A DNA stretch of 34,619 nt, taken from Hyphochytrium catenoides (lineage: Eukaryota > Sar > Hyphochytriomycetes > Hyphochytriales > Hyphochytriaceae). The DNA lies in the NCBI GenBank assembly GCA_900088475.1, contig FLMG01003967.1, forward strand, positions 1-34,619, given 5' to 3'. Under the pieces are notes generated by a model that saw only the letters and a list, made by a program, of their open reading frames with translations, did not search any database and was not told the DNA's origin. Shown one piece after another: positions 1,825 to 30,500 of the stretch. Every line of letters begins with the position of its first letter. Position 1 is the stretch's first letter. The position numbers and the translations under genes are program-made.

Positions 1825-3013
1825 CCTAACCTCATAAGAGAAAATGCTCCTTAATATAAGCTTGAAGTATAGAGCGTTGTTGGCACCCGTTGCGGCCTGG
1901 TACGTCCTTCTCGCTCAACGATAGCTTTCCGCCGCAGATGACTAGACATCACACAGGCATGGTGCCTTGTGTGTGTCTCTTCTACACGACGAGGGAAGCT
2001 TCTCCGGAACAGCGATTGGACTTGCTAATACGAAGGCCGCCGAGTACGCGCTCAACCCTCTCTACCTCTGAGACAGTTCAGACAAAGAGCTTGAACAGAT
2101 AGGACAGCTTGGCTGCGGAAGGCGAGGTCGAGGAGGCCCCGCAGAAGAAGGCGAACAGATTTCTTCTGAAAGTCTGAACATGAAGCTTTTTGACGTCAAG
2201 TAGTGAAAGTTACCCGGGCCTATTTTGGCTCGAGTCAAAGTATTCACTAGTACCAAATTATAAGTATGTGTATATCATCTCAGCCCGGAATAGGCTTATC
2301 GCAAATGACTCGGGTTAGAGGCTGCAATATTGGGTTGTCTTTTGGCAGAGATTCCGGGCGATCTGCGTCGGCGGCAAGGGCAGACAGAGATCAGAGCTCA
2401 GAGCTCCAGCTGTCAGACTTCCAGAGCTTGCAGTTTGCTGCTTGACAGTCAACAGTGAGAAAGAAAGTTGTCTGGGGACAAGAGGGCCTCGAAAGTCCTT
2501 ATTTAGGAGCAGGTAGAGGATGAGCTAAGCGCTTGGCTTATCTGTGCTTTGCTTGGAGGGCTGCCACGTCTCGCTCAACGACAAACTGGTGCTTAGGGGC
2601 CTGCTGTTCCTAAGGCTTTAGGAGCGATGGCTTCTCTCGTGAGGGAGCTTTTTCTCTCTATGCGTCCGAGCTTCTTTAGGTAGGCAGAGATAGCAAGCTT
2701 TGGTCAGAAAGACGCTACCTTAGAATTAGAGGAGAGGCAGATCTGTGATGAAGTCGGAACTGAGTAGGAGTTGAGATGCAAGGAGGCGGACGAAAGTGTC
2801 TTGATGAGAGAGGAATTGTGTGTGTGTGTGAGAGAGAGAAGAAAGAGAGAGAGAGAGAGAGAGGAATTGTGTTTGTGTGTGTGAGAGAGAGAAGAGAGAG
2901 AGAGTGTGTGTGAGAGAGAGAGGTTGGGCACACCACATGAAATGGGTGCCTCTGAGCTATGAAAGTGCAAAGCTAGTTCCAACCACGGACTGACGATCAC
3001 TACTTCTTCTTAG
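1825..3013 (+). other. Upstream region with candidate 5' exons of the FN3/VHL-beta gene
   Basis: No reading frame here has a recognisable family, but three short pieces splice in frame into the firm exon at 3014: 1844-1899 (ATG, a hydrophobic start with LLAPVAAW), 1957-2043 (LHDEGSFSGTAIGLANTKAA) and 2077-2199 (ending KLFDVK). The link needs a 33-nt intron (2044-2076) containing an in-frame TGA, then an 814-nt intron (2200-3013) holding the GA/GT repeat. The ATG would sit 20 bp from the ARP10 start on the other strand. This is an inference from phase and composition only; the true start could lie elsewhere. Confidence 0.35.
2806..2923. repeat. Duplicated GT/GA low-complexity block
   Basis: Two copies, about 50 bp apart, of a unit that begins GAGGAATTGTG, runs into (GT)n and then (GA)n. 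They start near 2810 and 2860. The serine/leucine-rich frames on the opposite strand are a by-product of this repeat. Confidence 0.85.
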
Positions 3014-5503
3014 GGCCGACTTTTTCGAGAAGCACTCTGCTGTCCGGACGCTGCTCTTCATGCTCCTTTTCTTCTACGCCATTACGGCGGTGAACTTTGT
3101 ACAGCTCTTGATGGACCCGGAGAGTAAGCTGACAAAGAGTTTGTCCCTGTCGATCAGAGGAGCGTTTAGGGCACTCGTTCAGGAGATGCCATCAGATCTG
3201 GAAGTCTATTTGGACAGCGCGAGAGGGAGGATTGACTTCAATAGAGCCGCCGAGGTGGGACCACTCAGACTGCTGCTACGTGGACATCTTAGCCTCTTGC
3301 AGTCTTCTTGTTGGCCTCTTGTCTACGACCTCTCTTTTCTCCGTTTCCATGCAACCCCATACATTATAGGCTAACGGTGTTGGCAGCTTCGCTTCGAGCG
3401 CTTCTATGATCTTATCGGTGAAGATCCAAAAGACGCGGTAAGCAGGGTAAAGGAGGTGGACGTGTCTCAACTATCATTTTCCCCCTTGTCAAGCTCTCTG
3501 TCTTCCACAGACTGTCCCCTCACTCACTATTGACTGAGCGTGCACTTATCACTAGCTTTATATGTCTAAGCCTCGTCTGTCTGCAGAGGAACTTCTGGGT
3601 TCTCCTTGCTTCAAACGACCGAGTCAAGGACCCAACGAAGACGTTCTTGGAGGGAGAGGAAGGTGGGGAGAAGTACAAAGGACATCCTCCGTCCGTAATT
3701 CTTACGCAGACAGCCATTTACTTTCGGCCTATGCTCTTTGTCGTGGGGGGAAAGAGGAGGGGAGAAGAAGACAGTGATGAGGGAGATGTGATTGAGAGCT
3801 CTCAGGAGCTACTTCTAGGGTTATTGGACGGGTCTTCTGTGCAGCTGAGCCGCAGCTATTGGCCTGTCCATTACGAATCTCTGTCTGCCGAACTCAATTC
3901 ATTTGGTCAGCTTTTCTGTGAGAAGATTAGCGTTCCGGAAAGAGATAGGGGTCGACAAGAAAGGAGAGGTGACCAAGCAAGAGAGCAGGAAGAAGTAGAA
4001 AGAGATACTTCTGGACGGAGATTTGTGCACAAATGCACTCAGGAGTCATTCAAGCAAGGGGTGGCCAAGATCCTGCAATCCCAGTCGTTTGCCTACGCGG
4101 ACCTGTTCTTTGCTCCAGCCTTTGCTGGATTATTCTTCTTAACCTCTCTCATCCTGAACTCCCTGGTCTGGGTGCGGTACTTCGTGACTGTCTCTCCGGT
4201 GCTGTACGGCTTCTCCAACCTTGCTTTTAGCCGCACGGTGCGGGGAGCAGAAAGAGAGAGAGAAGCAGTGACAATCTCTGAGGCTGTAAAGCTAGTCATT
4301 TATACGTCCTCTCCCTTCCTTCTGCGGGACTTGATCTTAGGCCCACCAGTCTTTGACTTGATGGAGCTGATTGTCTCTGTCCTCAGTCATTCTGCCTGGT
4401 TTATCATAGCTTTGTATAGAATCAAGGTACAGAGAATTCCTCCTTCTCCTTCCGATTCTTCAACGCCTTCCGCTGCTGACGATGAGCGAGGAGGAGAGAG
4501 ATTGGCAAGCTTCTTCTCCCTGGTCCCTGGCAGAACAAGAGGCGGATCCAGACCTGAAGTGAAAGACGTCAGCGCTACTTCGGTCCTTTTGGACTGGAGC
4601 AGCTACGCTGCCGCCCTGTCCTCCCCTTCCACAGTGTCTTCCTTCCGAATCTGGGCAAAACCTGCGTCTCAGCACACTTTCTTTCTCTTGGGCGACACGC
4701 ACAGTATCGGAACCTTCGCCCTTCTTTATGGGCTGTCCCCGGACACTTCGTACCAGTTCAAGGTGGAGGCAATAGATCAGCAAGGCAGGAATATCAGCCT
4801 ACCTTCTGCTGTCTCACTACCAGTCAAGACAAGGACCCTTGCAGATCCTTATTGGGGCTTCCTTGAACAGCGGCGAACGGTGTCTTCCTTCTTTTATGAG
4901 CAAGCAGGGGCTGCTGTTGAGAAAGCCCTTTCCACCTCAATAACAAGCCTTGCGACGATGCAAGAAGGAAGAAGAGAGCAGAAAGAGAGAGAGATTGCCC
5001 AGCTGAGAACTACAGCTGAACAGCTGGCTCATTTTAGGCGACAGAGCGAGGGGACTCTGCTCCAAATGGAAGCTCAGTACCGACTGGCCGCAGCTTTACA
5101 GGGGAGGGCTGAACCCGCTCTGTCGTCTACATCTCCTTCTTCTCCATTCTTTCTCCTTTTGACAAGTTCAGCAGCGCAAAGCGCTCTTGAACGGAGAGAC
5201 ATGAAGTCCGAGCGGGCAGATGTGGCTGTCGACGTGACATTTGTGAACAGAACAGACGAGTCTCTCACCCTAGAATGGCTGGACTATCAAGGAGCTAGAC
5301 AACCGCAGGGTCGGATAGAGAGAGGAGCAGAAGTGCAGATTCACACTTTCTTTTCGCACCCTTTCTTGATCTCTCGCTCCTCAGGAGCGATTATAGCTCT
5401 TTTTGCACCGACCCTTCCTCCTCCGTCTCAACCTCGTCCTCGGCGATACAGAGTGCTTATATCAAGGGCAGACCCGCCAACCGTGACTGTCGAGAGGGTC
5501 TGA
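3014..5503 (+). CDS. Membrane protein with FN3, coiled-coil and VHL-beta-like domains (5' end uncertain)
   Basis: Exons 3014-3254, 3387-3437 and 3587-5503 join in phase and give 735 residues to a TGA; the first codon is split with an upstream exon. With the candidate exons at 1844-2199 the protein would be 824 residues. Seen in order: a membrane segment near 3045-3110 (LLFMLLFFYAITAVNF); a charged linker; hydrophobic segments at about 4090-4230 and 4280-4420; a fibronectin type III domain at about 4550-4831 (VLLDW, then YGLSPDTSYQFKVEAID); a coiled coil at about 4960-5105; and at about 5216-5410 a VHL-beta-like domain (VTFVNRTDESL, EWLDYQG, then QIHTFF and SHPF). In human VHL this fold binds hydroxyproline; here the equivalents of Trp88, His110 and His115 are visible, but Tyr98 aligns with Gln and Trp117 with Phe. 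Function is unknown. A membrane-anchored adaptor is an inference. Confidence 0.75.
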
Positions 5504-5839: not shown

Positions 5840-7303
5840 CTACATAGCACGGTAATGCTCCTCTCTGTCATCCTCGTACGCCAGGACCTCTTCTGTCTGT
5901 TTCTTCCTCCTCTTGTGTCTACGAACCGCAAGCACGACAATCCCAATGAAGATCACGGTGCCAGCCACCGCAGAAAGAACAATGATAAGAATCTTCACTG
6001 CAGGTTTAAGCGCAGACTGCCCGCCCTGTTCTCCCTCTCCTGGAGGAGACGGGCCATCTTTTCTAGTGTCATCCTCTCTTTCGCTGCAGAGACAGAAGGC
6101 CGGACAGTTAACAGGTCCCCGTCTGTTACAAGCCTCATTGCACCAGCCATTGTCGCTCCTATTCTGCGCATGGCAGTAGCGCGTAGGATAGGAACAGAAA
6201 GATGAAAAGGAGGAGCAGCAGGCTGAGGCAGGAGGACAGAAGAGGAGGAGAGACGAGTTTCTCTTGGTGATGGCGGTGGAGGCGTCCTGAGCTGTACCAG
6301 CAGCTACACATACGTCAGTAGCAGACGGGGAAGACGAGGTAAGAGACCCACAAGGGAGAGAAGAGGAACAGCGTTGGCAAGAAGGAGGATCCTCTCTGGA
6401 CATTCTATTGGTAGGAATGACTGGAGGAGGAGGAGGAGTCTGAGAGGACTCTGTTTCGGAGGGAGGTGGAGGAGGAGGAAGAGTGCCATCCCACATAGAT
6501 GGCCCAAGGAGGCAACGCACAGTTCCCGGGGGACAGGCTGCATTTTGGAGATCAAAGCACGCAGCGTCCCCAGTGTTTACGCAGACTGAGCCCAGTGAGC
6601 GCGGGGCACATGCCGCACATGAAGAGAAAGAAGAGAAAGAAGGGGACGTCGCCGGAGAGGAAGAAGGAGACGGTGATGCAGAAGAGCCCTCTCTCTCCTC
6701 AGCAGCACACAGCCTCGTGCCACTCGGACACTTCCCCTCGCGATCGACGCCATAGCACTTTCTTTCTCCAGAATGCAGGCACGGACTTTGAGGCCTACAG
6801 AGGCCTTCACAGTCCACGGTAGGCAGCAGAGGAAAGAGCGAAGATTGGTCTCCTTGGCACGGTGCTGTTCCCGCGGGACAGGGATCAGAGGGAGAGGGAG
6901 AGGAAAAACATACTCCGTTGGCTGTGTTCAGACAGTCTCCTGAGCTGCCGGCTGCGCATCTGATGCAGTTCTGTCGACGAGAGAGGTCTATGGGGGAGCA
7001 GAGGACACTAGCAGGAGGACAGACAAGGACAGAGGCGGCAGAAGGAGGAGGAGAGAGTGGAGCAGTGCACTGCGACGTGCCAGAGTTATAGCAAGGACTG
7101 CTATGAGTGCAGCTTTGGCAGCCTATCACTTGGGGCAGGAGGAGGCCTGAGAGAGAAGAGCCTGAGTCTCTTTCCCTTCCAGTCGGTAGCGCTCTCTGAG
7201 CCGAAGAGAACTGTCGTTTATGGATGGCAGCAGCCTCCAAGAGAGGAAGAGATGATAAGGACAACGTAAGAAGAACCGAGAGACAGAAGCTTGCTCTGCC
7301 CAT
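5840..7303 (-). CDS. Cysteine-repeat type I membrane protein, paralogue A
   Basis: 487 residues, no intron. The ATG at 7303 was chosen because it opens a clear signal peptide (MGRASFCLSVLLTLSLSSLP) and aligns with the start of the paralogue at 18699; the open frame runs upstream to 7513 but that part looks non-coding. The ectodomain has four six-cysteine repeats of the form C-x2/3-C-x(5-7)-C-hydrophobic-N/H-x(4-6)-C-x(7-20)-C-P-x-G/S-x3-C, with cores such as CPAGTAPC, CPSGTRLC and CPPGTVRC, then a degenerate fifth. Next comes a block with ITKRNSSLLLFCP and a WCNEACNRRG...CPAFCLC module resembling the WC-x-C-type modules of secreted protist and fungal proteins. One membrane helix (about residues 435-460) is followed by a basic stop and a 27-residue tail ending EEHYRAM; YRAM fits the tyrosine sorting signal YxxPhi. 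Probably a surface or endosomal receptor-like protein; ligand unknown. Confidence 0.8.
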   Translation of the reverse strand: MGRASFCLSVLLTLSLSSLPLLEAAAIHKRQFSSAQRALPTGRERDSGSSLSGLLLPQVIGCQSCTHSSPCYNSGTSQCTAPLSPPPSAASVLVCPPASVLCSPIDLSRRQNCIRCAAGSSGDCLNTANGVCFSSPSPSDPCPAGTAPCQGDQSSLFPLLPTVDCEGLCRPQSPCLHSGERKCYGVDREGKCPSGTRLCAAEEREGSSASPSPSSSPATSPSFSSFSSCAACAPRSLGSVCVNTGDAACFDLQNAACPPGTVRCLLGPSMWDGTLPPPPPPSETESSQTPPPPPVIPTNRMSREDPPSCQRCSSSLPCGSLTSSSPSATDVCVAAGTAQDASTAITKRNSSLLLFCPPASACCSSFSSFCSYPTRYCHAQNRSDNGWCNEACNRRGPVNCPAFCLCSEREDDTRKDGPSPPGEGEQGGQSALKPAVKILIIVLSAVAGTVIFIGIVVLAVRRHKRRKKQTEEVLAYEDDREEHYRAM

Positions 7304-7490
7304 CCTGAGGAGATCAAGGAGACAGTGAAAAACAGCGCCGCCGTTCACGAGGCAAGGGGAAAGAGAGAACGAGAGAGACAGAGAGTCATGCCAGTATGCC
7401 AAGATATAACCCTCTTGTCGCCTAACAACCAAGCCAGACACAGGGCAGATGTCTTGGTCTTCCCTTTTCGTTGTCTTCTTTTCGTTCCTT

Positions 7491-7880
7491 ATGGAAGCAC
7501 GAGACGAGGACAAGGATCGGTCTTTCGAAGATCTTCCTTTCTCTTCTCAGTTCTCCCGGCTCTACACCTCCGACTCGTGCTTTGACTCTAAGGCTCTTCA
7601 GGAGGCCCTTTCGTTGCAAGTGCCCTCTCTCCCTCTGCGCGATGACGCTTCAATGGCAGAGCAAGGGGAGAGATCCCAAGACGCGAGAGAGAGGGAGAGA
7701 GAGAGAAAAGCAGAGGCAACAACGGAGCTGGAGAGCTGGGGAGAAGGGAAGGCAAGGGAAGGTGAGGCGGCAGACAGGCAAACAGACAGAAGAGCCGCCC
7801 CGCCACCAACGCCTCAGCTCCTCCAAACTGGCAACTGCGCGAAAGGTCGTTCGTTGCCTCCAGCCCACCTTAGCTGCTAA
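7491..7880 (+). CDS. Hypothetical short ORF, doubtful
   Basis: ATG at 7491 opens 130 codons. The first 40 look protein-like (MEARDEDKDRSFEDLPFSSQ, then FSRLYTSDSCFDSKALQEAL). The second half falls into GA-repeat-derived RERERK and loses any domain look. A donor-like site after GCAA near 7613 could end a first exon there, but no matching downstream exon was found. It lies head-to-head with the cysteine protein at 7303. No family recognised; it may be noise in the promoter region. Confidence 0.25.
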   Translation: MEARDEDKDRSFEDLPFSSQFSRLYTSDSCFDSKALQEALSLQVPSLPLRDDASMAEQGERSQDARERERERKAEATTELESWGEGKAREGEAADRQTDRRAAPPPTPQLLQTGNCAKGRSLPPAHLSC

Positions 7881-8856: not shown

Positions 8857-11800
8857 CTACAGCGCAGGAGGAGGAGGAGGAGGTCCTCGACCTGTTTTCC
8901 CATACGCTTCAGCGACGAGCTTTGAGATCCGGCCCATCGGCTGGGGCATGCCTCTCCCTCCGCGTTCTCCTCCTCTTGACATTGCGTTGAAGGCGATGGA
9001 GCCACGACCATACGGCGCAGGCGCTCCTCGATTATCTCCTCCTCCTGGGTAGTATGCACTCTCTCTTGGACTGAGATAGGCGCGATAGTTTTCAGCTCTT
9101 CCTCCATTCACGCCAAAGGCAACGTAAGAGGTGCGACTCTCTGCCCTGCCTCGTCCTTGCTGGCGTCCATACATTCCAGATGGGCGGTAGTAGAGGCTCT
9201 GCCCGACAGGGAGGAGAGAAATAGAGTTGGGAGGAGGAGGATAGAGAAATTCTTCCTCTTCCTCGTCTCTGCGATTGCCAAAGACCTGCGCGACATAGCG
9301 TGAAGCTCGGGCTGAGTCGACGCCGTGCATGTTCATCATGTTCCTGCCAATAGAGCCACGGCCCACCAGCTTCCGCTGCCTTCTTCCTCCCATAAAGCGA
9401 AGCTCTTCCTCGAGGAGGAAAACATTCTCTCCGCCCCTCTCCAGGTCTCTTTCTCCCTCTTTTCCGCAGGCTTCCAGGCTAATGTCGCAGGCAAGGCTCT
9501 GAGGGGCTTCTGCCAAGTTGGAGGCAAAGCGCGCTACCGTAAGGTTGGGCCTAATGACCATCACGCCCATGCGGTGCAGCTCCATGGCCTTCTCCGCCTC
9601 TCTTTCTTTCGCCTTGACTGTGGCCAGCAAACGAGGCTTCTTGTCTGGGAAGGCTCTCTGTATCAGCTGACAATACTCCTTGGTCCGCTCTGGGTCGTCC
9701 AGGAGGAAGATGACCGCGTCCGTGTTGCCTTCAATAGCAGAGAGGGAAGTAGGAGAGAGAGACAGAACTTCATCAACCAGTTCGATGTTCTTGGCTGCCT
9801 CTCTTCCTTCTTCTCCCTCTTTGTCGAGGAAACGGTGGAGGTTCTCTCTCACTGCGCTGTTGCCTAAAGCAGGAATACGGACTTTGGCGCCCGTAGAGCA
9901 GAGATGAAGAGAAAGAGAGAAGGCAAGCTCCGAGGCGCCGATGACCGCAGCCCTCTCTATCTTTAGAGGGAGACCTGCTTTCTGTGGATTCGCTGCTCCT
10001 CCTTCGCCATCTTCTCCTCCTCCTTCTCCATCTAACGTTTTCTTTCCATGATGGTCATCTCCATCACTCTCTAGCATCTTTCCTGCCTCCCCTGACCTCT
10101 TCACACCGAGTGAACAGAGAACGGGACCAAAGAGCTGAGCAATGACCACAGCGCCAACAATAGTAGCGGCAAAGAGTGGTCCCCACGTGTCAGGCGCCAA
10201 CATTTGAACTTCATTAGCTAATCCCAACGTAACGCCTGCTTGAGGCGTGAAGCACATCCACAGATTTGTATAGAACTCCTTCCCTTTCTTGAGAATGAAC
10301 TTCAAAGCAATGAACGTCCCAGCAATGAGGGCGAACCAGCGTACAGCGACGTAGGTCAGAGAGAGAGGAAGAGCCTTAGCCACCTGGTCAAGTTTCATGG
10401 CAGCCCCAGTCATGGTGAAGAACGGAAGAAAGACATAGGGAGCGGCAGTGTCAAGGATAACATGCATATCATGCCTGATGTGCTCGGATTTGTGACCAGC
10501 GATGCAGGAGGCGATCATGAGCACCAGGAGCTTCTCAAACTTTATCTCCCACTCCTCACCAAATTTCTCCTTTGAGAACTCAGCGAAGAACTCTGTAAAA
10601 GTGAACCAGCCGAACCCGGCCACCATCCAGACAACGCCCTTGACAGGGAGAGAGTACAGGAGAGAGAGAAGGGCATTCCCTCCTTCCTTAGGAGAGGGAT
10701 GGTGCAGAGAAAAAAGCCCGACGATGAAGAAGCTGAAGAGAGCTCCGATGAGAAGGTTTGAGAGAACAATGGCAAAGGTCACCAGAATAGCCGTAGGGTT
10801 GGCGGCCTTCTCAGTGCAAGAGAGCGAGGCCACAATCCTCGCTACAGAGAAGGTAACAAGCACAAGGAAGTCAGAGATCATCACCATACCGATCATTAGG
10901 TTCGTGAAGGGCCCAGCACTCTTCAGCTCTATTTGAATGGCTAGGGCAGTAGCAGGTGAGATCGCCACCCCAATAGAGGCGAAGAGAAGTGCGACAGAGA
11001 TGGAGCATGACCCGCCAAGTGCGCCGTAGAAGAACGCTCCAGCTGCCACGGAAAGGATTCCCGTCATGATGCTGAGAATCGTGACGTACTGCACGCCCAA
11101 TGTGATGCCAATATTTCTAATGTGAGGCTTCAGGTCGGGCCAGTACAGCTCCTGTCCAGCCTGGAAGGCAATGAAAGAGAGTGCCACGTTGTTCACAAAG
11201 GCAGCAAGACCCATCACAGTCTCCTTCTGAAGCAGATTGGTAAGGAAGGGCCCAGCCATAACGCCAATGAGAAGGTAGCCGGTGATAATGGGGAGTCGGA
11301 GGAGAGCAGGAAAGAGCATAGCGAGGGGAAATGCTGCCACACAGACGATAGCGAAGCCGATGCTGCCCATGATGGTACGGAAGAGGCTCAACTTTGGCAT
11401 TTCTCCTTCTTTGCCCTCTGCCTTCTCTTTCCCTTCCTCTGCTAGCTCTTCTGCATCGATGACGCCAGGAGCACCGTTCCCTCCTGTGGAGAGAGCTTGC
11501 TGCTGGGTAGTCTGATCTGCAATTTGTGCCCCTCCTCCGTTCACAGTACCTGTTGCTCCTCCCGCTCTTGTCTGATGGCTCTGTGCCGGGCTGGGGCTCA
11601 CAGCAGCAGGGATCATCTTAGGTTGCACCACAGGGGCTTGGGGTCTCCCCTGTCCTCCAGTTGCCGTTACGCCCTGTGCTCCGGTTGTTGTCGTGGTGGA
11701 CTGGGTACCTTTTACTGCAGTTCCCATGCTTTCTGCTCCTGCAGGTGCAGCTGGCATCATTCCTCCACTGGTGTCACCTTGCATTCCCATTGATCTGCTG

Positions 11801-12048
11801 TCCATTCCTGCTACTGGTCCGGCAGCAGAGACAGAGGGAAGGCTGTTTCCCTGCAAGATCTCTCTAACAGCGGCTTCATTGTTCAGTCCTTGAGCTAGGA
11901 TAGACGCGAGGTCTACATTCTGAGAGACAGAAAAACGAAGAGAGAACAGAAAGATAAGGAGAAGAAGAACAAGAGAAGAGAAGCTGACTCTGTTACTTCT
12001 CGACTTTCCCATAAAGAGGGAGGTAACTTCCGTCTGAACCTTCATCAT
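8857..12048 (-). CDS. CPA2/KEA-type cation-proton antiporter with signal peptide and Gly-rich tail
   Basis: 1063 residues in one uninterrupted frame. It exchanges a monovalent cation (K+ or Na+) for H+ by family; the ion cannot be read from sequence. A signal peptide is clear; the internal Met13 (MGKSRSNRVSFSSLVLLLL) would give an equally good start at 12012. Residues 44-216 are a Gly/Ala/Thr/Gln-rich linker predicted outside the membrane or in a lumen. Residues 221-650 form the antiporter core with about a dozen helices: the crossover stretch IGVAISPATALAIQ (359-372), then a helix with a single buried Asp393 (MVMISDFLVLV), and TPQAGVTLGLA (601-611) near the C-end. A cytosolic nucleotide-binding-like domain follows (698-845, AAVIGASELAFSLSLHL), but its glycine motif is not the classical GxGxxG of RCK/TrkA. 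The last 190 residues are Arg/Gly/Tyr-rich and end in poly-proline. Membrane location (plasma, plastid or endomembrane) is unclear. Confidence 0.88.
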   Translation of the reverse strand: MMKVQTEVTSLFMGKSRSNRVSFSSLVLLLLIFLFSLRFSVSQNVDLASILAQGLNNEAAVREILQGNSLPSVSAAGPVAGMDSRSMGMQGDTSGGMMPAAPAGAESMGTAVKGTQSTTTTTGAQGVTATGGQGRPQAPVVQPKMIPAAVSPSPAQSHQTRAGGATGTVNGGGAQIADQTTQQQALSTGGNGAPGVIDAEELAEEGKEKAEGKEGEMPKLSLFRTIMGSIGFAIVCVAAFPLAMLFPALLRLPIITGYLLIGVMAGPFLTNLLQKETVMGLAAFVNNVALSFIAFQAGQELYWPDLKPHIRNIGITLGVQYVTILSIMTGILSVAAGAFFYGALGGSCSISVALLFASIGVAISPATALAIQIELKSAGPFTNLMIGMVMISDFLVLVTFSVARIVASLSCTEKAANPTAILVTFAIVLSNLLIGALFSFFIVGLFSLHHPSPKEGGNALLSLLYSLPVKGVVWMVAGFGWFTFTEFFAEFSKEKFGEEWEIKFEKLLVLMIASCIAGHKSEHIRHDMHVILDTAAPYVFLPFFTMTGAAMKLDQVAKALPLSLTYVAVRWFALIAGTFIALKFILKKGKEFYTNLWMCFTPQAGVTLGLANEVQMLAPDTWGPLFAATIVGAVVIAQLFGPVLCSLGVKRSGEAGKMLESDGDDHHGKKTLDGEGGGEDGEGGAANPQKAGLPLKIERAAVIGASELAFSLSLHLCSTGAKVRIPALGNSAVRENLHRFLDKEGEEGREAAKNIELVDEVLSLSPTSLSAIEGNTDAVIFLLDDPERTKEYCQLIQRAFPDKKPRLLATVKAKEREAEKAMELHRMGVMVIRPNLTVARFASNLAEAPQSLACDISLEACGKEGERDLERGGENVFLLEEELRFMGGRRQRKLVGRGSIGRNMMNMHGVDSARASRYVAQVFGNRRDEEEEEFLYPPPPNSISLLPVGQSLYYRPSGMYGRQQGRGRAESRTSYVAFGVNGGRAENYRAYLSPRESAYYPGGGDNRGAPAPYGRGSIAFNAMSRGGERGGRGMPQPMGRISKLVAEAYGKTGRGPPPPPPAL

Positions 12049-12695
12049 CCTCGGCCACGCCTAACCGATGTTGCGATGTGCTCGCCTCCTCTCTCAGGGG
12101 CATGGAAAGACTGAAGATCGAGAGCAAAAAGAGGAATCGAGAGAGAAGAAGCGGAAAAGCCAGACTTTCTCTCTTTGGATGGCGCCACACAGAAAAGGGG
12201 AATGTACTGGAGTTTTAGCTAGGTGATCCAGTCAATTGCAGTAGGTCTAGAAGGTGGCGACGCTGTGTAAGAGGGAGAGATCGAAAGAACGAGAGGGAGA
12301 GAGTAGATGGTTGCGCGAAGGAGAGAGAGCAAAGTGATGGCGTATCAGTAGCAATGGAAGTTGCATACTGAGAAGCAGTGGTAAGATGTAAGGGAAGAGT
12401 AGAGAGCTGCCAGCGCTCTCCACCAGACCCGGCGTCTACCGTCTCTTCTTCTGCTGGCGACCTGCGCCTTCTCTACTTTACCGCCTCCAACGATTATATT
12501 TCCTCCCTCTTTCTTTCTCCCTTCCTGTATCTGCTGCAGGGGTATCGTGAGTGACCATGATAAGGTCAGCGGTGACTTCTCCGGCTCTCCATCGCCGCGG
12601 GAATCAGCTAGCAAAGTGCTGGAGAGGACTGGACAGAGCCAAGTGGAGATTAATTGGCGCACGAGAAGGGAATGAAAAGGAGGGGAATAGAACGT

Positions 12696-16690: not shown

Positions 16691-18698
16691 GCAGTGTGAG
16701 GGCAACGACAGTACGTCGGCTCTTGGATGACGATGGAGTTCTATTATTGGTCTCAAGGAGGGCAAGAATAGTCAACGTACTCTGAAGTCCTCCAAGGGCA
16801 GAATAGCGGTAACAGCACATGATGAAAGCGATTGGTGTGCGGATACATCATTTGTTATCACTAAAATCTCCTCAGTCATCATCACAGTAGCATCGTGACC
16901 AAATAAAGGTAAGCAGAACCATCCAACAACGAATGCCGCTCCTCCCGGCGCCACCCGCCGCCGGCATTATTTAGCCAGCCAAGTAGGTAACAGTGAACTA
17001 TGGTCGCTTGCACCTCCTCACTCTGTAGCGCTTCTGCTGGTCGTCATCAGCGTCCACCCGTTTATCGGCACACTCGTTAATTGGATGAAGGAGAACAAGG
17101 TCTAGGCATTGTCTTGTATATCATGGGTAACGAAGGAGAAAAGATGACCAAAGTCGTCTCATCGAAGACTGGGACGATGGAGAGCAAACAGGAGGAGCGG
17201 GGAAGGTTGTTGACGGAAAGAGTGCATCGCGGTGAACTTCTAGAGATTATCCTCAAGAAAAGAAGGAGTGTCGTTGTTTGATACTGATGCTGCCGCGCAG
17301 CTGCGACAAGCAGTAGTCCCTGACTGTGTTCCTACTGCACGACGATCGGCCGCTTTCATGCTGCTGGAGGAATAGGAAAGAGTACCGGCAGCACTAATTA
17401 TTATTTTCCTGGCATCACATCCAATGAGGTTCCTGTGGCTGCCGGCACAATGAGTTTGATAGGACCACCTCGCCTCTTCAACTTATCAGCAAACTGATAA
17501 GAAGGGCAAGCAAGAACGTGTCACCACAGTATCTCCAGATCTTCTGCGCAGAAAAAGCATGGGCCAGTGCCAAGGCCAGCATGGGCCACTGCCAGCAGGG
17601 ATACTCGACCAGCACAAACCAACTGATGCTGCTATCTCAGCTATCGAGATATTAGCCTGTGCATGAAGTTGAGCGAATCATACATAAAGATAATAAGCAG
17701 ATCATACAATTTTATAAGAACGAAGTATGTTAGTAGCCAATTGCCGTCGCAAAGCATATGCGACACGTCTTCCCGCGGACTCTCCAGTGTCTAGTGGTAC
17801 AATCCACCAGGTATCACATCAAAGGAAGATAGACCCAGAGACAGAAGTTGAAGCCTGCAGAGGCCAAGAAGCCTCTTACGCCCTGAATCAACCGAGCCAA
17901 CAGAGCTCTTCGACCTCCAGTCCGGCTCTTCTTGCTGCCGTCATGAAGTTCACGATGACATGAGACGACCGAGTGATGCCTTGACCCACTCTCAAACTAT
18001 CGACTATGGAAACCACGAGTCCAACGTCGCCCTAGAGCCTCTGAGTCTGTGCTATTCTGTCAGATCAATAGCCAGAGAGCTGCCCTTGTCCGTTTGACCT
18101 GCGGCCCATCGACAGACAACAGAAAGATCTGAGTCCATCATCCAGCCTATGACCGTTCAGAATGAATACGTACGTAAGTTTGTATAAGCCCAGACTCGAG
18201 GCCTATATCGCTGATCCGCACAAAGAAGTTGAAGCAGTGTTAGAATGTCCTTTCGCGCGTTTTCCACAGGAGCTTCGGGGATGGCAGAGCTCGTTCTTCT
18301 GTCTGACCCGCCAACCACCAGATCCGCAGCAGCGCCAGAGCCCTTGCTCCTCCCGGAAGACAGCATCTCTCTCACTCGTCGCCTCTCCACTGACTCTGCT
18401 GTCTTTTGCTGTCCCGCTGTGGTTTGTGTCTCTCTCAGTCTCTTTTCGGAAGGCGTCCTTTCTCTTCATTACCAGCTGTTTAGCTGTCTTTTGCTGCCGT
18501 GTCACTGCATTGCTAGACTTTCCGGCCTCGTTTTCCTACGGAAATAGTGGGAACATCTCAAGTCTCTGACGTCTCATAAGCTCTGTCAAGTGAGTTTGGG
18601 GTTGCTTCTCATCCTCCATCTTTAACTCTGCCTAGTTAGGCGAAGGACCTAACCCGTGCGACACAAGAGGCACGATACTAGCGAGAGGAGCGACAGTT

Positions 18699-20240
18699 AT
18701 GCGTTCAGGCAGTCTCTTTCTGCTCGTTCTCTGCGTGGGTCTCCTTCCTGTCACCAACTCTAGAGGAGGGGAAAGGCAGCAGTCCTTCTCTCGTTCGAGC
18801 AGGAAAAAGAAAGGGGGAGCTAATAGGACTGATCACCATCGTCTCTCGCGACCACCTCTCCAGGTGGTTGGCTGCACTACTTGTCCTGCCGGCTCACCTT
18901 GCTTTAACTCTGGGAACTCACAGTGCTATCCACTTCTTCAAGCTTGGGGCGCCTCATCCTCTGACAGCTATCAATCCTGCCCTGCAGGGAGTGCTCCTTG
19001 CGCTCCTTTGCAGCTCTCTTACCGCCAGCAATGCACACGTTGCACTGGAGAGAGCTCTGGCGACTGTGTAAACACTTTGAACGGAGCCTGTTTCTCTTCT
19101 GTCTCTCCCAATTGGTCATGCCCATTTGGGACAGCCCCATGTCAGAGGGGAATGGCCTCATCCTCCCCTATCGTTCCTACTGTGGCCTGTGAAGGGCTCT
19201 GTACCCCTGCAAGAGCGTGCTTGCACTCACTAGCTAGAGAATGTTACAATGCTGAAAAGGACGGAAGGTGTCCCAATGGAACCAGGCCGTGTGGCGCTGA
19301 ACCCGGTTCCCTTTCCCAACTCCTTCCACCATCATCTCCTTCGCCGTGCAGCAGCTGCGCCACCGGTTCGCCCGGCTCAGCCTGTATAAACACTCAAGAC
19401 TCTACGTGCTATGACCTAATTGGCGGCCGCTGCCCGACGGGCACTGCTCAATGTCTCTTAGGTTCAAGTATGCTTGACCCAACTGTACCATCTCCAACTC
19501 CACTATTTAACGGAGATGGGTCTTCTTCGGCAACACCATCCTCCTTTAGCTCAACTTTCTCTCCGCGTTCACCTCTGTCGCCTCCTGTTTCTGACGCCAC
19601 TGGGACCATTCCCTCAGGCGCCCCGCATCTGCCTGGACCGTCTGGTACCTCTCCTCTCACGCCTTCAGACAACCAGAGGACAAAAGCTCTGAGTGGTGAT
19701 GATCCTTTGACTTGCACGAGCTGTAGCTCAGCCCTACCTTGCGCCATTCTCTCACCATCCTCGGCTGAAGAAGTATGTGTAGCTGCCCTTACAGCCCAGG
19801 ACTTCTCCACGACCATCACCAAGAGAAACTCGTCTCTCCTTCTTTTCTGTCCCACGGCTTCTGCCTGCTGCTCTACCTTCTCCACTCTCTGTTCCTATGC
19901 TACTCGGTACTGCTACGCTCGGAACCACAGCGACGATGACTGGTGCAATGATGTGTGCAATAGAAGGGGATCTGTTAACTGCCCATCGTTCTGTGTTTGC
20001 AGTGAGACGGACAGGGAAGAAGATACCTCTGCTCCTTCTCAGCCTGAAGATGGCAAAAGCTCTCCTTCCCTGCCGTCAGCAGTGAAAGTTATGCTCATCG
20101 TCTTTGCGTCCCTTGCAGGCGCGGCACTCTTCGGCAGTATCGTCATGCTAATTATCGTCAGGTGTCGGAAGAGGCAGAGGCAGATTGAGGAGGTTCTACA
20201 TTTTGAAGATGAAAGAGAAGACCACTACACAGCTCTCTGA
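18699..20240 (+). CDS. Cysteine-repeat type I membrane protein, paralogue B
   Basis: 513 residues, no intron, ATG at 18699 opening a signal peptide (MRSGSLFLLVLCVGLLPVTN). It has the same order as paralogue A: four six-cysteine repeats (CPAGSAPC, CPFGTAPC, CPNGTRPC, CPTGTAQC), a Ser/Thr/Pro-rich stalk (about residues 260-340), a degenerate repeat, the ITKRNSSLLLFCP block and the WCNDVCNRRG...CPSFCVC module. A membrane helix (about 461-487) is followed by a basic stop and a 26-residue tail ending EDHYTAL; YTAL is again YxxPhi. The tail is closer to that of A than the stalks are, and 28 nt (19813-19840) match A exactly at 6246-6273. The two genes point away from each other with the antiporter between them. 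Likely a duplicated receptor or cell-surface protein; ligand and partner unknown. Confidence 0.8.
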   Translation: MRSGSLFLLVLCVGLLPVTNSRGGERQQSFSRSSRKKKGGANRTDHHRLSRPPLQVVGCTTCPAGSPCFNSGNSQCYPLLQAWGASSSDSYQSCPAGSAPCAPLQLSYRQQCTRCTGESSGDCVNTLNGACFSSVSPNWSCPFGTAPCQRGMASSSPIVPTVACEGLCTPARACLHSLARECYNAEKDGRCPNGTRPCGAEPGSLSQLLPPSSPSPCSSCATGSPGSACINTQDSTCYDLIGGRCPTGTAQCLLGSSMLDPTVPSPTPLFNGDGSSSATPSSFSSTFSPRSPLSPPVSDATGTIPSGAPHLPGPSGTSPLTPSDNQRTKALSGDDPLTCTSCSSALPCAILSPSSAEEVCVAALTAQDFSTTITKRNSSLLLFCPTASACCSTFSTLCSYATRYCYARNHSDDDWCNDVCNRRGSVNCPSFCVCSETDREEDTSAPSQPEDGKSSPSLPSAVKVMLIVFASLAGAALFGSIVMLIIVRCRKRQRQIEEVLHFEDEREDHYTAL

Positions 20241-26507: not shown

Positions 26508-27459
26508 CTAAAGAACGGTCTTGAAAAGGTTTTGAACGAAGGCTTCCTCGTCTTTTGTCTTGATCACCAAAGCGGGGCTGTAGAGCATGAAAGGAGAGAG
26601 AACAACATCAATTTGCCGACCTCAGCACTGTTAGAGTACAGATAGAAGCTAGATGACACTATGCACAAAGCGACTTGGCTACCTGAGATTTCCCACTATA
26701 ACGGTCCCTTCTTCGACTCTGACCATGCAAGGCTGTCGTGTCCGATGCCTGACCGAGCTACATAGGGTTAAATATAGGAAAAACGTCATCAGCCCTAGGT
26801 TTGTCACCGACAGAGGAAGGAAGTGCGCAGAATGATGGGTGTGGACTACGGAGAGCAAGAAGGATCCGCAACGTACGACAAACTAATGACATTTTGGCTC
26901 TTCATTGCTGCTTTTGTCCTCGATCTATAATGTATGCATGGGCTCTAAGGAGGTACAGTCGTTAGTCCATTAGCAACCCCGATTGGAACAATGAATAGAG
27001 AAATGTCACTCAAGCCAAGATAAAAGTGTCATTCAAAGATGTTATACAAAGCTTGGGTCTATCAGTGGAAAAAAACATCCTAGAGTGTTCTGAGTCCTAA
27101 AAATAGCGGGCCAGTGGCATGAATATGTAGAGGTAAAAAGCCCCAGTTGCATGCAGCAGAAGGGTGCAAACTGAAGGACATAGAGGAAAAGATGAATCTG
27201 TATCGTACATAGACATCTCTCTTGAGATCCCAGGCGAGGATATCGCCCAAGGCTGTAGAGGCAAAGAACACCGCCGGACGGGAGGGAGACCACTGCAAGG
27301 AGACTATGCCTTCTCCTGTCTTCTCGGCCCAGAGAGTGTGGTCATAATGCAAGACTAAGGACGCAAGAGACAGCATGTGGACACTGCCATAACAATAGAA
27401 GCGTAAGTCAAGACCCCAAAGATACAGTGTAGATAAGACAATAGCCAAAGGAAAAGAGG

Positions 27460-27505
<46 letters not shown>

Positions 27506-30500
27506 TGCTTGAGGAAAGGCAGGTCGTCCCACCTGACATCCCCATTGCTCCAGCCAATCAGCAGTATATCAGGATAAAACGGAGATATTTTCACCGAGGA
27601 CGGAAACGCCAAAGAGTAAGAGAGAGCTTGAGGTCGTGACAGGACCGTAGGATCTAGAGAGAAAGGTGAACGAATACACGAGATGCGGTTAGCATTGAGA
27701 GACATGTTCGTTAAGTTGTTGAAGATGATCTCTGAATGCACTACTACGTGGGAGAAGATGGAAGGTATGGCAGGCCGAACAGCACACCAAGGACATTTTT
27801 TACGAGGAGGAACAGGACAACTGATGCAGTCAGGGCGAAAGAAAAAAGGGGGAATAGCATACAAGACCGGAGACTCACTTCCTCCAAATCTTGAGCCGTA
27901 GATCACACTTCCTGATAGGGTGCCTACCACATATCTGGTTGTTTGAGACAGATTAGTAGAATGAACTGACCAGCGGTATGGACACGGGAAAGGGAATGAG
28001 TGAGAGGTAGTTGACAGACCTCAGTCAATAGTAGCACGAGATATGCAGCCCGTCAACACATGGACCAGTTCTAGACATCTTAAGAACACTCATGAAAGAA
28101 GAATAAAGAGAGCAATGGCAAGAAGACGGAGATAGCGGTAGAGGAGACAGTGAAAGATTGCGATGCGGCTTAACTGGTTGGCATTCCCTGGCACAAAGTC
28201 CATGCATGCAACTTGAGGACCTTTAGATGCCCAGGAGGGAAGGAAGGAGAATTGAGGCTCAAGTGAGTGATATATCACCTACTCACTAGCAAAGACAAGG
28301 GCTCTGAGGGCAGTGACGAGTAGACATTATAGAGTTGCCAGACTTTAAAGCACAACTGCACAGAGAGAGTGAAGGAAAGGCAAAACGGCTGATTTCACGA
28401 GTGCATGCGTCGCAAGAGCTGTGGCTAAGGGAGAGAGAGATCCAAAAAACGTCTATCGCAAAGATTGCCGGGAAGCGACGGAAATGTACCTGGGAATCGT
28501 CCTTTGCCAAGGTCAAATATAACGTCAACGGCTGCAGTCTTCAGCAACTTCACTCGTCCTCCGGTACTCAGACCCAAGTCAGACTCAGAACCAGCCCTAA
28601 CATAGAGTCAAGGTTGCGCGTTGGGATGAGAGAGCAGAAAGGACATAGTGAAAGGACATAGGGAAGAGAGTAGGCAGCCTAGCTATATCGCTGACATTGA
28701 ACACAGGCGCGGCCCTATGACTCAAAATTGCGTTTCGGATCAGCGCAAGGCGCAAGAAGGGGATTGGAATCGAAGTGCAGATAAAAGCAAGACGAGAGAA
28801 GCATTGGCCAAAATGATGGAGGAGTGATCGAGAGAGCTCTTACATATCTCCCCGCTGGAGCTCTACCACGCTCCAGATAATCAAGATGCCCCTGTCGTCT
28901 AGCGATGCGACCTGAATGACTCCACGGCCTTCCATAAGCGTCGAAGTCAAAGTGTAGAGAGGTCATAGCATGTACGTTTGAGTGACAGGGTAGCCATTCA
29001 AGAGAAGAGGTAAGAGCATCGTACCGTTGCCAAGCTGATTGAGCGGCAACAAGCCGCACTACGAGAGAGCAGCACAGCAAGAGAGAAAAAAGTCAGGCAA
29101 CTCAGACTTGAGTTCAAGGGGATAGAACTGTGGATGCTGTAGGACTTGCAGGTCTGGATAGGTAGACGGCAAGAAAGTAAGCACCCCGTGGTATTGACCA
29201 CTGAAGAACTAGTTGATGATGGGAGGAGAAAGACGGGTTCAACAGCTTCATAAGCAGTCTGAGAAGGAATATCACTAGTCGAGCTGCTTCATCCCCCTTA
29301 CTATGACTGACTGGTGACCCTCGCTTCCCATCATGGCGGTAGTGAACGTTGGCCGCCGGAATTCTTTGCTGACTTTGATATCCACGCTCCCTGGTGATAA
29401 GGTGAGTGAACAAACGCCACCCAACACGGCAGTAGGGATATAATTAGAGAAAATGAAGGATGAACCGCAATGAAGCCAAGATGGGCGCTAAGCAGACCCT
29501 ACTGTCGATTGCATATCACCAAATGATGTGCTGTAGATGCAGACATTAAGGTTGGGGGGCTGACAGAAGAGCATCAGAGATATTCTAGGCGAGGGGAGCG
29601 AAGTAATGGTTGTTGCGAGTCCTACCACTATGCAAGGACTTCGGCTCTCTAAGGTCCCACAGCTCTATTATTCCTGAGTTACTTCCAGCTAAGACCAAAC
29701 GATTCTGATCTGCCAAACTGCAGCAGCAGACCATAGCTTCGCTAATCAACACTCTATAGGGAATAAACACTATGAGTGAAAAATCGGAGACTGTAAGGAA
29801 AGCCTTACGAAGCGATGGTAGCAGCGGAGAGAGCCGCCCCTCTCCTCCACCATAAGAACGATAACGATCGAGGCAAGAGAATAGTGTTGGGCACGAACGT
29901 CACCACTAAGAAGAGAGGTAGAGTGCCCCTACCTTGAAGGTGCAATGGGCGAGTTGACGTCCCAGACCGTGAGGATACTCTTGCTTCGCAGTGGATACTT
30001 CTCCGAGTATCTCTCTAATGTGGGTGAGAGGTTCAGAGGGTCGTGACGTAGATGAAACTTGGTTGGCTGTGTAACGATAAGAGTACTTGATCGAAAAGGA
30101 CAAAGGACACACCGAGACATAGGAAAGGCTGATTCACATCGGGGAGGGCGACCGAGATAGACGGAGTGGCAAGGTAAAGGGACTTATCTATAAGAACAGC
30201 TTGAAGCAGAAGGGATTCTTGTATCTTACTTACCTTCCAACTTCTGGTATGCTGCTACGAGCAAATAGGGCGACGATGGAGAGAAGCTAACATCTATGAA
30301 GACGAGCGGCCAGGTAAAAGAAATTAGCTCATAAACATGAAGATTCAAGAGCTGGGTTAAGGGGAAGGTCCTGGTCACACAGACATTCGCAAGAAAGCTT
30401 CATCCGCTTTGCATTACCTGCGACTCTTCTGCCTTCCAGCTCCTCTTTCATTTCTCTGTCCTCCTTCCAGGCGAGCTCCTCACCCTCTTCTTTCCCTCCT

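Follow-up and report, generated by a model that had tools for sequence, protein, structure and literature searches.

A VHL-beta domain in a predicted membrane protein of Hyphochytrium catenoides and its relatives in bacteria

Animals read hydroxyproline in oxygen sensing through the von Hippel-Lindau protein (VHL). A contig from Hyphochytrium catenoides (FLMG01003967.1 of assembly GCA_900088475.1, positions 1 to 34,619; the whole stretch is hereafter the window, to which all unprefixed coordinates refer) carries a forward-strand gene whose product appears to join hydrophobic segments and an FN3 domain to a C-terminal VHL-beta domain. What might such a domain do in a membrane protein, and from which VHL-beta proteins is it least distant? 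Here, we address these questions with profile searches, structure prediction and comparison with bacterial homologues, taking as our starting point an initial annotation made from the sequence alone.

The C-terminal domain and its gene

The domain is VHL-beta. Pfam family PF01847 matches at 5204..5371 (+) with 25.4 bits against a curated cut-off of 21 (residues 559-614 of the translation of window positions 3530-5500), and no other match to this family at E ≤ 0.001 emerged from a six-frame search of the 42.5-Mb assembly (1105 contigs) that was searched as the organism's own genome. In an alignment-based structure model of the domain (pLDDT 87.8), a VHL-type beta-sandwich spans the whole beta domain (63-154), and the stretch at 5213..5476 (+) overlays human VHL 67-156 with a root-mean-square deviation (rmsd) of 1.7 Å over 80 residues. 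Several of the best structural rows are human VHL beta domains (PDB 1LM8, 4AWJ; rmsd 1.5–1.7 Å over 79–80 residues), sharing 22–24% identity with the window domain in the best alignments; the isolated domain sequence also finds human VHL as its best PDB match, but with an E-value of just 0.034. The initial annotation had recognised VHL-beta in the C-terminal 65 residues, an identification upheld by profile and fold alike, although the structural match shows that extent to be too short. A single-sequence fold of 5150-5500 reached a pLDDT of 44.8 and was left aside.

The chain stops 8 residues past the stretch matching VHL 67-156 and the alpha domain is absent, as had been observed at the outset for a SOCS-type alpha domain. 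In human VHL, according to an excerpt of the published account, the alpha domain comprises residues 155-213 and recruits Elongin B/C (PMC9528729). A VHL-type substrate receptor that used Elongin C in trans, or an alpha domain supplied by another gene, would fit the homology of the beta domain to human VHL and the presence of Elongin-C-like proteins in alveolates, as reported in the accessible part of PMC11321763. With only 8 residues remaining after the match, we regard such a receptor as highly improbable, and a ubiquitin-ligase receptor proper was rejected on the absence of the alpha domain, which bears out the doubt expressed in the initial annotation. The bacterial relatives of the domain are also not known to have a eukaryotic-type cullin/Elongin system.

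The gene sits in an open frame at 3422-5503 (+), of which 3587..5503 (+) constitutes the last exon, running from an acceptor at 3586/3587 to a TGA stop at 5501-5503 and encoding a non-membrane region, hydrophobic segments, FN3, a linker and VHL-beta. The gene extends beyond the 4550..5410 given initially. Upstream of 3587, two or more exons are probable: one at 3013..3254 (+), suggested by frame-keeping GT..AG borders and hydropathy and carrying the first hydrophobic segment (3051-3107), and a short one at 3387..3437 (+), LRFERFYDLIGEDPKDA, suggested by GT..AG borders and frame as one of several frame-keeping combinations. The exon set was picked from among these combinations by the look of the splice sites and of the protein. 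No start codon was located, so the spliced model of 735 residues lacks part of the N-terminus. The window DNA looks eukaryotic, and because probable introns precede the open frame we consider a contaminating bacterial gene unlikely. Among 120 listed beta-tubulin matches out of 1122, full-length identity peaks at 96%, with Phytophthora cactorum; a putative delta-like tubulin (L012) is also present, and a search for light-harvesting proteins gave no match. These markers suggest, without settling it, a flagellated and non-photosynthetic protist close to the stramenopiles.

Homology searches scored about 8000 word-sharing candidates each, so that distant relatives may have escaped; within this scope, there was no homologue of protein residues 340-657 at E ≤ 0.01, nor of residues 1-400 of the 735-residue model at E ≤ 10. 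In the rest of the genome, the protein matched weakly at two places interrupted by stops (E 0.007 and 0.05); both matches fall in its charged stretch and the hydrophobic one beside it, and were set aside.

Bacterial relatives and the hydroxyproline pocket

VHL-beta domains were found in bacteria of six phyla, at 25 loci, and include the closest sequence relatives of the window domain (L013-L040; compare Litorilituus EMK97_00595 in the available portion of PMC9002001, which had already reported VHL-beta in a bacterium). The range of animals and scattered protists assumed initially was thus too narrow. A profile of 23 of the 25 loci, built without the window row and without L029 (domain identical to L028) and L039 (truncated at the 5′ end and containing an X), gave the window domain 62.0 bits and human VHL-beta 36.0 bits, a comparison that favours the window and is not fully independent, as the window domain was part of the query alignment used to collect the loci. 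Shuffling the domain's residues 1000 times gave at most 4.3 bits, and among 269 window frames of ≥60 residues, scores above 3.0 bits occurred solely in the gene's own frame. By these sequence scores, the window domain is closer to bacterial domains than to human VHL. It shares 34% identity over 71 residues with a homologue from Jannaschia whose N-terminus is signal-like.

Ahead of VHL-beta, bacterial proteins carry a signal- or anchor-like hydrophobic segment in 17 of 23 cases at the script threshold of ≥1.9 and in 20 of 23 at ≥1.8, a count added alongside (both without L039 and L040); L020, L028 and L029 lie at 1.82–1.89, leaving below 1.8 L023 (Calothrix NIES-4101) together with L019 and L033, whose 5′ ends are both open. 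Judged by these segments rather than by signal-peptide prediction, bacterial VHL-beta looks to be mainly an exported domain, so that a membrane or secretory setting would be the usual one in bacteria and not the oddity that the initial annotation had implied. A loose lipobox pattern flagged 9 of the 23 rows and was not used as evidence. Bacterial proteins with the domain are generally short (17 of the 25 genome loci encode ≤309 residues), whereas the window gene is eukaryotic, probably spliced, and encodes several hydrophobic segments and FN3.

The bacterial distribution is sparse: VHL-beta occurred in 9 of the 292 genomes sampled from one cyanobacterial phylum (the centre genome included), and 14 control genomes had none. 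Phage records yielded no VHL-beta relative at E ≤ 1, and of eight stretches in viral contigs that fitted the search pattern, none was confirmed as one. In L020 (2461-5025) and L017 (277-3222), VHL-beta lies within or ends large proteins (855 and 982 residues, respectively), the former presumably akin to S9-type peptidases. The cyanobacterial L037 (2038-3207) bears a C-terminal VHL-beta on a pilin-like protein with GFTLIELLVAG near its N-terminus, and L033, truncated at its 5′ end, is similar.

In human VHL, as described in an excerpt of PMC9528729, the hydroxyproline site is walled by Trp88, Tyr98, His110, Ser111, His115 and Trp117; Ser111 and His115 bind the hydroxyl and Tyr98 the carbonyl. 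Alignment places at the corresponding window positions a kept Trp (W88; 5276..5278, +), a Gln in place of Y98 (5306..5308, +), a Thr in place of S111 that keeps the hydroxyl (5345..5347, +), a kept His (H115; 5357..5359, +) and a Phe in place of W117, aromatic but smaller (5363..5365, +). Three of five human residues are thus kept if Ser-to-Thr is counted. On this alignment the window domain retains the hydroxyl-reading pair but differs at the carbonyl contact and at one wall; that two pocket aromatics are changed had been rightly seen in the initial annotation. The binding of hydroxyproline-bearing proteins that it considered possible would be favoured by W88, T111 and H115 and made less certain by Y98Q and W117F.

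Among 32 distinct bacterial domains (L057, with an internal stop, is not one of them), W88 is present in 32, Y98 in 29, H115 in 32 and W117 in 31, and position 111 is always Thr (30) or Ser (2), although many of these rows were collected with two patterns that jointly fix W88, T111, H115 and F/W117. The seven distinct domains found by the Pfam profile alone, itself biased towards such residues, agree: W88, S/T111, H115 and W117 in all seven and Y98 in six, with W in the other. Across the loci (L013-L040, L043-L058), mostly export-like bacterial proteins thus retain nearly the whole human pocket; our limited search of the open-licence literature found nothing published on this pocket of the bacterial domains. 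Beyond the window protein itself, this conservation is the more interesting point.

A plausible competitor, to which we give somewhat less than even credence, is that the fold persists as a generic interaction or scaffold domain whose hydroxyproline pocket has decayed through Y98Q and W117F and whose ligand is unrelated to proline. The kept W88, T111 and H115 argue against decay, as does the exchange of W117 for another aromatic. No other bacterial domain in the set has both aromatics altered; the Jannaschia pocket (W, S, T, H, F), by changing the same two positions, suggests a sub-type, on the strength of a single homologue.

Membrane setting and proposed role

Three hydrophobic regions were identified by Kyte-Doolittle hydropathy: 3051-3107, about 4088..4204 (+; peaks 1.55–1.94, one or two membrane helices) and about 4331..4423 (+; peaks 1.68–1.86, probably the final membrane helix, with KVQR after it). 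They support the view, already taken in the initial annotation, that the product is a membrane protein with several such segments. The FN3 domain named there is likewise borne out by profile search (PF00041, 32.5 bits against a curated cut-off of 25), at 4556..4792 (+) or residues 343-421 of the translation of 3530-5500; the organism's own genome holds 44 FN3 matches. At about 48-67 kb of contig C984 in genome G000 there is an 11308-residue open frame in which FN3 matches several times. The charged linker at 4844..5107 (+) may be helical, but the coiled coil proposed for it could not be established, 300 of 1000 shuffles scoring as well in a crude heptad test.

Homology searches and our limited search of the open-licence literature revealed no precedent for the combination of hydrophobic segments, FN3 and VHL-beta, which is a new architecture of a known domain. 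Human VHL differs in having an alpha domain and an unaltered Y98 and W117, and in not being a membrane protein with FN3. Outside animals, the nearest eukaryotic parallel by description, rather than by sequence, is the SELENOM-pVHL protein of the alga Aureococcus anophagefferens, in which, according to part of PMC7539508, VHL-beta is fused to an unrelated partner, selenoprotein M. A survey, in the portion accessible, records VHL in a choanoflagellate, though others that it cites found none (PMC9618697).

From the computed domain identity, predicted fold, pocket residues, hydrophobic segments and missing alpha domain, we infer a ligand, a membrane side and a biological role. Our best explanation overall, held with slightly less than even confidence, is that the protein is tethered to a membrane and binds proline or hydroxyproline peptides, without being a ubiquitin-ligase receptor. 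The hydrophobic segments would anchor the protein in the membrane, and FN3 and the charged linker would bear a C-terminal VHL-beta akin to that of exported bacterial proteins. The groove used by VHL for HIF would here hold a proline-rich peptide, probably bearing 4-hydroxyproline, through the kept Trp88, Thr(111) and His115, with Gln for Tyr98 and Phe for Trp117 shifting affinity or the choice of ligand. Because the alpha domain is absent, Elongin C would not be recruited, and the outcome would be tethering or adhesion, not degradation. Proline hydroxylation is probably available in the organism, since its genome contains four matches to the 2OG-FeII_Oxy_3 family, of which the strongest hits the prolyl 4-hydroxylase of PDB entry 2jig (E 1.4e-27), an algal enzyme.

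The side of the membrane matters to a related proposal. Here the domain would face outwards or into the lumen and act as an adhesin, at the cell surface or in the wall, that binds hydroxyproline glycoproteins of the organism itself. FN3 is frequent in surface proteins, the bacterial relatives mostly look exported, the genome encodes a prolyl 4-hydroxylase, and the window itself holds a pair of 46% identical Cys-rich proteins with a single anchor. By analogy, the bacterial context of VHL-beta suggests the lumen or surface side. Basic residues past the last hydrophobic segment, judged by inspection, hint instead at a cytosolic C-terminus, and we consider the adhesin improbable.

Several observations weigh against a membrane-tethered peptide binder. 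Tyr98, the carbonyl contact in human VHL, is Gln and Trp117 is Phe in the window, at positions near-invariant elsewhere. The topology signals conflict, as the basic residues point to a cytosolic C-terminus whereas prolyl hydroxylases of the L005 type mostly act in the secretory pathway. HGSNAT heads the structural search, tied with pVHL, although its luminal domain (8vkj) shows 8% identity and an rmsd of 2.6 Å, and sequence lends kinship no support. Our homology searches, within their scope, gave no relative of the whole protein that would show the architecture to be conserved, and the same limited literature search found no ligand for any bacterial VHL-beta domain.

A broader scenario, which we advance as speculative and rather unlikely in its entirety, is that VHL-beta is an old, mostly exported peptide reader whose hydroxyproline-type pocket (W88, Y98, S/T111, H115, W117) was fixed already in bacteria. 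Animals would have added the alpha domain for oxygen sensing, and the window protein would belong to a eukaryotic branch that is tethered to membranes, whose pocket has been re-tuned (Y98Q, W117F) and which reads hydroxyproline proteins without degradation. A membrane-bound eukaryotic protein with the reading half alone, together with bacterial kin that have a near-whole pocket, makes it testable whether hydroxyproline or proline reading came before oxygen sensing and ubiquitin. The window domain is also a natural pocket variant useful to VHL ligand chemistry.

Neighbouring genes

The paralogous Cys-rich proteins lie at 5840-7546 (−) and 18636-20240 (+), each with a signal-like N-terminus and, by inspection, a single membrane segment; 240 of 523 alignment columns are identical, and neither has a Pfam family above cut-off. 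Between them, 8857-12060 (−) encodes a protein of 1063 residues that has no Pfam match at E ≤ 1 and presumably resembles CPA2/KefC-type cation:proton antiporters. A WD-repeat-like piece at 27080-27568 (−), SLQWSPSRPAVFFASTALGDILAWDLKRD, is in our estimation similar to dynein intermediate chain.
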